A stretch of 64,000 bases of DNA. It comes from Pontederia crassipes (taxonomy: Eukaryota > Streptophyta > Magnoliopsida > Commelinales > Pontederiaceae). The notes beneath the pieces were generated by a model. That model was not told the DNA's origin. It did not search any database and saw only the letters and a list, made by a program, of their open reading frames with translations. The stretch is taken from NCBI GenBank assembly GCA_030549335.1, contig CM060183.1, positions 32,868,768 to 32,932,767 of the forward strand. Reading direction: 5' to 3'. This document shows positions 17,356 to 36,966 of the stretch, piece by piece (position 1 is the stretch's first letter; every line of letters begins with the position of its first letter). The translations under genes and the position numbers were made by a program.

Positions 17356-17758
17356 TTAGAACTTGTCTTCGAATTCCGAGAGGGGGGTCATTTGCTCTTT
17401 CAAGCCCTTCCTCTTCCTAATGTCACTCACTAGCTGTGCAGTTTGGGAACCAGAGTCCATGGGATCCGAATTCATCATGTCCCAGTGATCAAAGACGCAC
17501 TGAGGGAAAGCCTGTGCTGACGTCGCAGCACGCAAGGTGCCCGAGAATCCGAAGGATTCGATGACCGGGAGATAAGCCTTGATGTTGTACAGCGGGGTAC
17601 CTGGCCTCTGCTGTTCTTCGAAGACATGCCTTCTCTTCTGGTTAAGAACGCCATAGATGCCACCTAAAGCCTGTTCAGGAGCTTGAATCTCTACCAAGTA
17701 CACGGGTTCCAGTAACCTTGGTTTGACTGTTAGCTGGGCTGCGTAAATGACCCTTCCG
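17356..17758 (-). pseudogene. eEF2 C-terminal fragment (domain V end)
   Basis: Translates [20 protein letters not shown], continues through [17 protein letters not shown] and [16 protein letters not shown], and ends [12 protein letters not shown]. This is the invariant eEF2 C-terminus with the stop in its normal place; the usual last residue is Leu, here Phe. The join to the upstream piece is interrupted by the 433-bp MITE. Confidence 0.9.
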
Positions 17759-18191
17759 TGCGTTTGGTTATAGAATATGTTTTAGAGAATAAGAAAATTT
17801 GTTATAATATTCTTCTAATATTCTTATTCTTCTCTTTGTTTGGTTTAATCAGAATAAATTTTAAATATAACATATTTTATAATTTAAATATTTTATTATA
17901 AATTATTGACATTTAATTATTATTATAAAAGATAATAGTATAATAATATGTGATTAAATTATAAAAAATAAAAGAAATGGTAAAATGTTGAAAAAGTGAG
18001 AATATATGTATTCCATCATTTAGATGGAATAAAAAATTTACTGCTTGAAGGAATATAACGGTGGTATCACGATTTTCAAGGTAGTTTTATCAAAAATGCA
18101 TTTTCATTGGTATAATCTTATTCTCCTGCGTGTTTGACAATATTCATCTGAATAAGTATCTATTCTTTGTCTTATACTACAACCAAACGCC
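17759..18191. mobile_element. hAT-like MITE inside the eEF2 exon
   Basis: Terminal inverted repeats GCGTTTGGTTATAG (left) and GCGTTTGGTTGTAG (right, other strand). The flanks are CCCTTCCG (17751-17758) and CCCTTCTG (18192-18199), an 8-bp target duplication with one mismatch. Removing the element and one copy restores the eEF2 codons for PTARRV, which fixes the borders. The interior is AT-rich and non-coding. The 8-bp duplication points to the hAT superfamily. Confidence 0.75.
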
Positions 18192-18369
18192 CCCTTCTGG
18201 CCGTAGGAATGACCTGACCATCGCCTCTGTGGACATCGTGCAGAACAACATCGCACACCTCGAAGCGTATGCCATGCATGTTCTCCTCAGCGAGGGCTCC
18301 TTCCTTGGATGCCCACTGGAACCCTGCAACAACAGAGTCCTTGATTTCGTTCAGATACTGGACTCCCTT
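18192..18369 (-). pseudogene. eEF2 fragment (GVQYLNEI to IPTARR)
   Basis: Encodes [20 protein letters not shown] and on to [10 protein letters not shown], a stretch just before the eEF2 C-terminal domain. Two residues are missing in the LHADAIHRG segment (reads LHDVHRG). The last bases on the right, CCCTT (18365-18369), are where the gypsy element entered. Confidence 0.88.
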
Positions 18370-20311
18370 TGTAACGCCCCCGAAATGCACCCCGCCACGT
18401 GATCGAATACACTCCGGGAACATTACAGGACACGACTTACATGTACAATAATTTGATCAAAATAAAACTTTGACTGGTCAACATAATAGAGGCATAATTG
18501 AGGAAGAGAAAAATAGTAATTATTTATTTGAAAAGAGATATAATAGAAAATGAGTGCAGAAGTCTTAATGACATAACATAATGAGTCCCAAATAACATAA
18601 GCATGAGAGTTTGGATAAGATAAATACAACTCGATGACAATAGAAGGAAAACTGAAGAGACTCGACATCATGTGCAAAGATCATCACGAGCTCGATCTGT
18701 CGCCTACGCCATCATCTTTTTACTGGGACAGTTATTACTTGTGACATTGAATACACAGGGGAGGTGAACCTCCTAGTGAGCTTTGACGCCCGGTACATAA
18801 TAACTACATGACATATGAGCAGTAATGACATCATAAAGATAATCAAATAAACATAATCATAAAATGATAGAACCATGTAGACATAATTTGTATGTTAATA
18901 TCATGATCAAAATGCACAAAATATAGTGGTATGACTGATGATAATATGATAAGTGTAATAAGAGTAACATAATCATCATTAAAAGATCATAATATCATTG
19001 GGCATTGCCCATCATCATAATCATTGTCATCTTTACATTTTCATTATGTTACACTTATTTTGGAGTGTCTTTCAACTCCCTTTAATGGGACCGATGGAGT
19101 ATCTTTCGACTTCCTTTTGGCTAAGGCGGAGCATCTCAACGCCCAATATGGACTGGTGGAGTATCTTTCGACTCCATTTTGGCCAAGTTGACCGTCGTCA
19201 ACATAACATAAGACGGGCTCATTCATTTACATTTTTCATTTTTTATCTTATTTACACCTAGGACTATCTTTGGAATTTAATGACCATCGATTCATGAATA
19301 ATAAGATGAAGGATGTCAGAATTTATATAAAATCATCATATATAAATGGTAAAAAAGATAGGCTTGATAGATTGAGTAGGAACACGACCAAGGAAATTTC
19401 AATGGGTTCTGGATTTCATACTTAAAAGACTTACTGAATAAAAGAGAAGATTAACTTTATACAACTAATAAAATAATCGGTGCTGTCAACATCAGAGCAT
19501 GTAATAAACTAACAAGACGAACACTAATGACTAAAGCACGCATATACTTCTGCTACAGTGTTATACATTTTTGAGGTCTCGAATGTTATAGAAAAAGTAT
19601 CTTACGCTATAGAAAAAGTATCCTTAAATGTTGGGATTAAATGTGCAGGAAGTACTAAATAATATTTTAAAGTGTCAAATACAAGAATGGTAACATATGT
19701 TTCAATTTAAAGTAAGGCGTGTGTATTATAAATTACATGCGATTAGCACCTTTAATATAAAGAAAACCTCCATCTCAGTGCATCAAATGCACTTACGTCT
19801 TATCGCATTAGACCTGGGAATGTGCATGAAAGGCACATGTGATACCAGATCTTTAATGCATTTTATCAAGCACACGGCTTACATCACTAACACCACTATT
19901 GCACTTGGATTAATGCATTTAATGCACCCTGAATGAAATATAATGGTTTCATACATGGGAAAATGATACATCGGAAAGAGTAATATTTGTTCACGTAATG
20001 GCAGAGATGGGCCAATAGATCTGAAAGATGTAGTCATTTATGAGAAAGTATGCATGGTAAATGCATAAAATTTCCTTACGACGATGAACGAAAAAGTTGT
20101 GCAGATGGCAAAATCATGTACCGATGGTAATTAATTTCGTAGGATCTTTCGTACCTTAAAAGAAATCAAACATTGCTATTGGCGGCCTCTACCTCTCCTT
20201 CGACCGCGACGTTCTCTTCCTAATAGCAATTATAGGGGGTAGTGGCAAGTTACTGGAATGGGTTAAATAGATTTCTTTTTCTTTTTTTTAACATAATTCT
20301 CGGACGTCACA
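18370..20311 (-). repeat. 3' LTR of gypsy element 1
   Basis: 1942 bp, plus-strand ends TGTAACGCC...GACGTCACA (TG...CA on the element strand). It is preceded by the eEF2 flank CCCTT and followed inward by a purine tract (AAGGGG on the element strand). It is near-identical to 25395-27123 apart from a 139-bp segment (19380-19518) present only here. An internal partial tandem repeat around 19060-19190 repeats GGAGTATCTTTCGACT. Confidence 0.9.
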
Positions 20312-20340
20312 TTATAAACCCCTTAAAATAAAATTCGTCC
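20312..20340 (-). other. Polypurine tract region of gypsy element 1
   Basis: On the element strand ATTTTAAGGGGTTTATAA abuts the start of the 3' LTR, the position where plus-strand priming occurs in LTR retrotransposons. The tract is short and degenerate. Confidence 0.5.
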
Positions 20341-20345
20341 TTGAA

Positions 20346-20624
20346 TTATGTATAGTGTAGGAACTTACCAAATAGTCTGAGAAACTGTTGCCGCATTTCT
20401 GACTTGAGTTCCCAAGTCGCTTCATCGCCTTGATGATAACTCCATGCGACTTTAACTAGTGGCACATCCCTGTTCTTGTGACGTTGGACTTTGTATTCTA
20501 GGATTCTGAGTGGCTGCTCTTCATATGTGAGATCTTCTTTAAGATTTGACTCCCCATATATGATAATGTTTGCCTCATCATATTTATACTTCCGGAGCAT
20601 AAATACATGAAAAACATTATGCAC
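20346..20624 (-). pseudogene. Gypsy element 1: integrase tail with chromodomain
   Basis: Contains VFHVFMLRKYKYD followed by LEYKVQRHKNRDVPLVKVAW and GDEATWELKSEMRQQFLRLF, the C-terminal chromodomain of plant chromoviruses, thought to steer integration. The frame between it and the integrase core (20625-20820) is broken by stops. Confidence 0.8.
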
Positions 20625-20817
20625 TCGTTCATACGATGGAGGTAGTGCTAATCTGCATGCCGCCTCTCCGACTAACTCGGGCTGAGCTTTCCTTTCTTAT
20701 TGAATCTCATGACTTCCTTCGTCGGGGAGACTTTTAGCAATACTTGATCACCTATTTGAAAGATCTGCTCATGTTGGCCCTTATCTGCATAGGTCTTCTG
20801 ACGAGTCTGTGCTGCTT

Positions 20818-35735: not shown

Positions 35736-35742
<7 letters not shown>

Positions 35743-35777
<35 letters not shown>
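35743..35777. repeat. (TA)n microsatellite in eEF2 intron 1
   Basis: A run of about 17 TA units within the original part of the intron. Confidence 0.85.
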
Positions 35778-35779
<2 letters not shown>

Positions 35780-36036
35780 TATTTTATTATGCATTTACAA
35801 TGATTATTTTATAAAAATGCGACTAAATTAGATGAGAAAAACAAGTCAGTTTACTTGTAATGAGCTAAGTATTAGATATAATTTTGAAAAAGAAAGCAAC
35901 TAAATGAATCAGAACAAAAAAAATGGAAGTTTTATATTTATCAAGGCATGCAAAAATAGTGAAAATAACAAAACAAACGATAGACGTATGACAATACCAA
36001 AATCTGTATAAAAGAAAAAAAGATAATAGCATATAC

Positions 36037-36132
36037 CGTGATCAACATGTGCAATGACAGACATGTTCCGAATGTTACGCTTCAAGTCCATAATCCTACG
36101 GAGCTCTTCTACTGTGAACTTCACCATCTTGT
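36037..36132 (-). pseudogene. eEF2 start exon
   Basis: Five leader bases and ATG at 36127, then [19 protein letters not shown] and VIAHVDHG. The donor is G|GTATAT at 36036. The intron position between HVDH-G and KST is the one used by plant eEF2 genes. The exon itself is undamaged. Confidence 0.88.
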
Positions 36133-36882
36133 CTGCTTTTGGAAAAATGCAGCAATATAACCAACGTAATCTGTGTGTGAAAAAATAATCAACAAATTAT
36201 GTAACCTGCAGTAGATGAAAAAGAAAATTCAACAAGAGTCATTCACACCACTAGGAACTCAGAGTTAATTACAATCACAAAAACGGAGGTATTTCATACA
36301 TAGTATAAAAACACCAAAAGAAAAAAAAAAGAAATAACGAATTATTTTCAGGATGAATGTAAAGATTACATAAGATTCATATGAGAGAACAATAATATTT
36401 GAATCATAATCAATTTCAGTATTTTGGTATTAACCTGTAGAATCCGTACAAAGGCATTAGAATATATGCGTACGGACGAAAGTTTCCAATCACCTCCATA
36501 TGCAGCAAAAGAAAAGAAAAAAAAAGAACGTCGTTTCAGAACATAATCAGTCTAACTTAAATGAAGAACAATCAGTAAGAACATAGCGAATGATAGGAAA
36601 AATTAACACAAATCAGAGGATAACTTAGCAACAGCATATCTAATACAACGACTGGCAGAGATATATCAGAAAGAACAACAATGAGCCTAAGTTGGTAACA
36701 TAGAAAAGTATCGCCCTGGAACGAGACAGATTAGGATGATCCAAAACAAAGCTTACACCTTAACAATCTAGAAACACAACAAGCCTGAACTATATTCGTA
36801 GAAGTCACAAACACAATTTCAACCTCAAACTAATCAAGGGAGAGGAATAATAGAAGAAGAAGAAGCCGCTAGGGTTTATTAC
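36133..36882 (-). other. eEF2 5' UTR intron
   Basis: Donor CAG|GTAATAAACCCTAGC at 36882 and acceptor AAAAGCAG at 36133. The leader intron begins with a telo-box (AAACCCTA, about 36870-36877), an element common near the start of plant translation-machinery genes. Confidence 0.65.
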
Positions 36883-36966
36883 CTGCAGACGATTTTTGCA
36901 GCACCGCCGCGAACGTTACCCACGAAAACCCTGGTGGTAGTAAATTACGGATATTTACGTATATAA
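36883..36966 (-). promoter_or_regulatory. eEF2 leader exon and TATA-like box
   Basis: A leader exon of about 50 bases ends CTGCAG at 36883. A TATATA motif lies at about 36960-36966 on the minus strand, giving a transcription start near 36932. The promoter core thus survives although the gene body is destroyed, so a short transcript could still be made. Confidence 0.5.

Follow-up and report, generated by a model that had tools for sequence, protein, structure and literature searches.

An eEF2 pseudogene of Pontederia crassipes interrupted by four mobile elements, with probable conversion between the long terminal repeats of one of them

A stretch of 64,000 nucleotides from Pontederia crassipes (assembly GCA_030549335.1, contig CM060183.1, positions 32,868,768 to 32,932,767), here called the window and numbered from its first letter, contains a copy of eEF2 on the minus strand. 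The copy extends over 19577 bp (17356–36932), from a 5' untranslated region (UTR) exon through the stop codon. Its coding sequence consists of five collinear minus-strand blocks, which run from the ATG to the stop and are interrupted by mobile elements. An earlier note on this DNA had described an eEF2 copy expanded by four insertions, which agrees with our analysis: four elements account for 16052 of the 19577 bp (82%). One gypsy element (G2) lies in intron 1, and a solo long terminal repeat (LTR), a second gypsy element (G1) and a miniature inverted-repeat transposable element (MITE) lie in the large coding exon. The copy is a real and well-marked, but ordinary, plant pseudogene. Its features are as follows, in the direction of the gene.

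36960–36967, minus: TATA-like run TTTATATA, read directly, putative function
36883–36932, minus: putative 5' UTR exon, followed by a GTAATA donor; the start at 36932 is the position given in the earlier note
36037–36170, minus: eEF2 start exon, coding part 36127–36037 ending in HVDHG; acceptor CACACACAG upstream, donor GTATAT downstream
29071–35500, minus: G2, gypsy remnant of ~6.4 kb, TGTAATAACC...GCGTTACA, with an LTR pair and SH3_Tf2-1
~33336–35500, minus: 5' LTR of G2, stopping ~14 bp short of the LTR end
~31930–33335, no strand: A+T-rich DNA in G2, ~1.4 kb; LTR similarity stops at ~33336
31373–31858, minus: integrase tail of G2 (SH3_Tf2-1 domain, Pfam)
29071–31206, minus: 3' LTR of G2
27724–29048, minus: first block of the eEF2 coding exon, covering the GTPase domain and domain 2, with three frame changes and one stop
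27289–27723, minus: solo LTR, 435 bp, TGTTGATAATG...CCTAACA, TG...CA ends
27145–27288, minus: eEF2 block reading to LVEGLKHLA, then MVVC in another frame; its first 5 bases are a duplication copy
27124–27144, minus: filler of ~21 bp, unlike both eEF2 and the aligned LTR
18370–27123, minus: G1, gypsy element of ~8.75 kb, with gag, protease, reverse transcriptase (RT), RNase H and integrase-tail frames between its LTRs
25395–27123, minus: 5' LTR of G1, lacking its first 90 bp and with a 139-bp internal deletion
25812–26931, minus: near-identical tract of the G1 5' LTR, with its partner at 18794–20052 in the 3' LTR
18370–20311, minus: 3' LTR of G1, ending in GCGTTACA directly before AAGGGAGTCC (KGV)
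18192–18369, minus: eEF2 block reading to IPTARR, with the diphthamide loop two residues shorter
17759–18191, minus: MITE, 433 bp, A+T-rich, flanked by CAGAAGGG (18192–18199) and CGGAAGGG (17751–17758)
17356–17758, minus: eEF2 C-terminal block ending in TAA; its first 8 bases are a duplication copy

The identity of the copy was established by domain and structure searches. Among six eEF2 pieces submitted to Pfam, four were matched (GTP_EFTU twice, GTP_EFTU_D2 and EFG_C). The 29-aa start exon gave no Pfam match, and the only Pfam match of the frame 27313–26993 was DUF1997, below the cut-off. When six pieces from downstream of the start exon were searched against PDB, eEF2 chains ranked top for each of them. 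An approximate plant eEF2 sequence, which served as a ruler, aligned to the region in seven segments with identities of 81–95%. The domain-2 piece had no confirmed relative in IMG/VR, and Rfam gave no match in the whole window at gathering scores. A plant host is indicated by the eEF2 identity and by two neighbours of plant type, AUX/IAA and LYK4/5 LysM.

Introns are kept in the 5' UTR and after HVDHG, both bounded by GT...AG, and coding resumes with GKSTLT. Since the introns are retained, the copy is not a retrocopy but a duplicated rather than a processed pseudogene; the class of duplicated non-processed pseudogenes is defined in a review (PMC5187791). Reading in three frames revealed one base lost at GHVDF (~28822), another lost before FGV (~28440) and a G run with two extra bases (~28410). 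A TGA stop follows at ~28370 in place of a W in the plant ruler, and a small deletion is located immediately upstream of MVVC (~27158). In the numbering of the 858-residue PDB chains, eEF2 breaks off at residue 529 ahead of G1 and resumes at 667 behind it, so that ~130 eEF2 codons are gone at the left edge of G1 when MVVC in the other frame is allowed for. The loop that we take to be the diphthamide loop lacks two residues and reads GDG instead of GGG. By comparison with the plant ruler, 2128 of the 2532 coding bases are left. The disabling lesions thus comprise three frame changes, one stop, the loss of ~130 codons and three insertions into the coding exon; the frame changes and the stop, together with the damaged loop, identify the copy as a pseudogene.

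The solo LTR is flanked by an exact duplication, AAAAG (CTTTT on the plus strand), at 27724–27728 and 27284–27288, as the earlier note had claimed. Its reconstructed empty site, ACA AAT GAA AAG GAA GTC GAT, encodes TNEK/EVD. An exact match of 5 bp at a fixed place is expected by chance about once in 1000 cases by simple arithmetic. The element has no second copy within the window and was judged by eye to be a candidate copia-like LTR. For the MITE, the two flanks are alike at seven of eight positions, the terminal inverted repeat of 18 nt is 89% complementary, and the empty site GCC AGA AGG GTC ATT TAC encodes ARRVIY (TARR/VIY). The 8-bp duplication given for this MITE in the earlier note is thus near-exact; the term 'hAT-like' was taken solely from the length of that duplication. 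Neither of these two single copies can be dated.

G1 yielded Pfam matches to gag, RVP_2 protease, RT, RNase H and SH3_Tf2-1, while a chromodomain match remained below the cut-off. Its LTRs end in TG...CA, a TATCAGAGCC stretch after the 5' LTR resembles a tRNA primer site, and a purine run precedes the 3' LTR. The LTR pair and the gypsy-type gag-pol domains place it in Ty3/gypsy, and it may be Tekay/Del-like. The protease-RT frame had no confirmed relative in IMG/VR. No target-site duplication is readable for G1 because its left border is lost, the 5' LTR beginning 90 bp in, after the filler; its class is unaffected. Since both eEF2 and LTR sequence were removed at this edge, we infer that the deletion postdates the insertion, unless G1 is a recombinant of two elements, as weighed below. 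Only short matches typical of a low-complexity string were found when a template for the filler was sought. Within 27030–27123 and 20151–20221, the two LTRs of G1 also share a 38-bp G+A-rich block, next to which the 5' LTR contains a GAGGTA-type repeat and the 3' LTR unrelated sequence.

The lost eEF2 segment was not found elsewhere in the window. The best match (31% over 45 residues, E = 0.002) is located at 38721–38855 and was rejected, as the retained segments are 81–95% identical to the same ruler and this DNA is GGTCGACCGATC-rich. The GGTCGACCGATC-like words of 38721–38855 resemble words of the G2 LTRs.

G2 carries an exact target-site duplication, TAATA (TATTA on the plus strand), at 35501–35505 and 29066–29070, in line with the earlier description of a second gypsy element in intron 1. 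Its LTRs are 94% identical, and the LTR pair, the duplication and a gypsy-type domain place it in Ty3/gypsy as well. The A+T-rich DNA at 31930–33335 has no similar DNA in the window and no clear terminal repeats, and its longest frames are 80 and 84 aa. Most of the interior of G2 has been replaced, through either another insertion or a deletion that captured other DNA. As ~1.4 kb of unrelated DNA is also present in G2, four insertions are a minimum.

LTR ages were compared as divergence and not in years, which would depend on assumed substitution rates. The count leaves out the initial 183 columns of the G1 alignment, in which filler, eEF2 and a GAGGTA-type repeat fail to align with the other LTR, and the last LTR bases in G2. 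The LTRs of G1 differ by 26 substitutions over 1635 compared bp, and these are distributed unevenly: a tract of 1120 bp (columns 100–1219) contains two, the remaining 515 bp 24. The sparsest 1000-bp window holds two substitutions, a value reached by none of 5000 shuffles (smallest 5), and a separate run of 2000 shuffles gave no result as extreme. The signal is that of one long tract. G2 served as the control, with 111 substitutions over 2088 bp; its 1000-bp window was matched by 1352, its 500-bp window by 1650 and its longest clean run by 520 of 5000 shuffles.

By Kimura two-parameter distance (K2P), the two elements are about threefold apart when whole LTRs are used (0.016 for G1, 0.056 for G2) but alike without the tract (0.049 against 0.056; Fisher p = 0.66). 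When the dropped columns were kept, values of 0.056 for G1 and 0.058 for G2 were obtained, of which the former is meaningless because it includes unrelated DNA. Dating by whole LTRs thus underestimates the age of G1 about threefold, and the strong clustering of the differences turns its LTR pair into a poor clock. The LTR divergence proposed for dating in the earlier note was measured for both gypsy elements; for G1 the whole-LTR value misleads.

The simplest explanation for this pattern, and a probable one, is gene conversion from one G1 LTR to the other. Conversion within an element has been documented for plants (Jedlicka et al. 2020, PMC7251063); in that article, converted regions are mostly 100–1000 bp long and extend further when both LTRs belong to one element than when they come from different elements, and age estimates go up once such regions are removed. 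G1 is similar in having a tract of near-identity within otherwise diverged LTRs that lowers the age estimate. It differs in that its tract, with 1120 compared bp, is slightly above this range, and in that shuffles were used here instead of GENECONV. The 139-bp deletion in the 5' LTR lies between two GTGTTC repeats inside the tract and would, if conversion occurred, be the later event.

Taken together, it is highly probable that the locus is a duplicated, intron-bearing eEF2 pseudogene that received four independent later insertions, with probable LTR–LTR conversion in G1. An intron-bearing duplicate would have lost its function and decayed, while an intact eEF2 gene presumably survives elsewhere in the genome. 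G2 would have landed in intron 1 and the MITE near the 3' end. An LTR element in the coding exon may have been reduced to the solo LTR through LTR–LTR recombination. G1 would have landed in the same exon and afterwards lost its left edge by deletion; its LTRs may have been partly homogenised by conversion before the 5' LTR lost 139 bp. Several points weigh against this interpretation. The eEF2 comparison was made against an approximate plant ruler only. The clustering in G1 is weaker for a 500-bp window (97 of 5000 shuffles) and for the longest clean run (78 of 5000), and four of the 26 substitutions, crowded into 11 bp, could stem from a single event. Likelihood was used to set the tract limits once the data had been seen, although the window test is independent of them. 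Finally, the tract could be an assembly patch.

Alternatively, G1 could have arisen by recombination between two related gypsy elements that both sat in this exon; a single exchange would have deleted the ~130 codons together with the left LTR edge and the duplication, and would have produced the patchy LTRs. The missing duplication, the missing eEF2 segment and the patchy LTRs do coincide at G1. However, outside the tract the LTRs of G1 are about as diverged as the ordinary ones of G2, so that a second, more diverged element is unneeded, and we regard this explanation as unlikely.

An assembly product, with a repeat collapsed or gap-filled at the tract or a misjoin at the left junction of G1, would fit a tract almost free of differences over 1120 bp and a junction with filler and no duplication. 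Yet eEF2 is collinear on both sides of every element, the window contains no N, and the 139-bp length difference inside the tract would have been erased by a simple collapse. Misjoined contigs had been named in the earlier note as grounds for refutation; the exact duplications speak against misjoins, at the solo LTR and G2 only. We consider such an artefact highly unlikely.

The suggestion that a useful transcript or short protein is still produced from the 5' exons draws on the 5' UTR exon, the ATG exon, the donors and the TATA-like run, but is scarcely credible given a coding exon that lacks ~130 codons and carries three frame changes, one stop and three insertions, and given that G2 ends only 22 nt before coding exon 2. 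This distance includes the duplication. An intron branch point usually lies inside or just upstream of a stretch of ~22 nt at this place. G2 has probably moved the old branch point more than 6 kb away, although a new one inside the LTR end is conceivable. Even if some transcription persists, normal splicing into coding exon 2 is doubtful because G2 adjoins the acceptor. The 5' features listed in the earlier note are all present, the splice sites as GT/AG dinucleotides only.

The introns, frame changes, stop and several insertions with duplications are as in duplicated plant pseudogenes hit by transposons. The copy does not differ from these in kind; it stands apart only by how many insertions a single, strongly conserved housekeeping gene has received. 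G1 resembles plant Ty3/gypsy elements in its gag-pol domains, TG...CA ends, primer-site-like stretch and purine run; unlike intact members, G1 and G2 are both defective, and G2 retains its LTRs and the integrase tail. The MITE is similar to plant hAT-like MITEs in its size of 433 bp, A+T-richness, terminal inverted repeat and near-exact 8-bp duplication, the superfamily assignment being putative; an autonomous parent was not found, no search aimed at one having been made. A literature search gave no paper joining a plant elongation factor 2 pseudogene with a retrotransposon insertion, and nothing closer was among the matches listed.

We therefore present the locus as a worked example and not as a discovery. 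The earlier note had proposed that every border can be read to the base and that the insertions form a natural stratigraphy. The first fails for G1 and the second is not supported: the left border of G1 is lost together with its duplication, the conservation of coding sequence is no help for the intronic G2, and the G1 clock is poor. The four insertions lie side by side with none nested in another, so that position gives no order of events. LTR dating needs a check for clustering before any such reading.

Several other features were observed in the window. Just downstream of the eEF2 copy, 14170–16678 (plus) contains an RVT_1 match at 14170–14976, followed by frames that appear LINE-like by eye. 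A 666-aa leucine-rich-repeat frame with an LRRNT_2 match (5401–7401, minus) resembles the outside part of a receptor kinase and gave no kinase match. It is flanked by direct repeat pairs at 2153–2345/7751–7942 (92%) and 8287–8869/11567–12137 (69%), which may reflect a local duplication or repeat elements present on both sides. A hairpin-like structure at 41126–41251 has perfect inverted arms of ~30 bp (TATTTCCACCACCTTCTGTATTATTTGCTTT...) around a (TA)n run and an extra arm copy upstream; 41137–41240 is identical to its own reverse complement. The ~460 bp at 55405–55864 form a long, decayed palindrome that matches its own reverse complement at 69% and may be a foldback element. An AUX/IAA family match was obtained at 45049–45414 (minus), and 46152–46592, with no Pfam match, resembles the N-terminal exon of this AUX/IAA gene by eye. 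A LysM frame at 62704–63390 (plus), matched by LysM3_LYK4_5, is likely a chitin-receptor-like gene.

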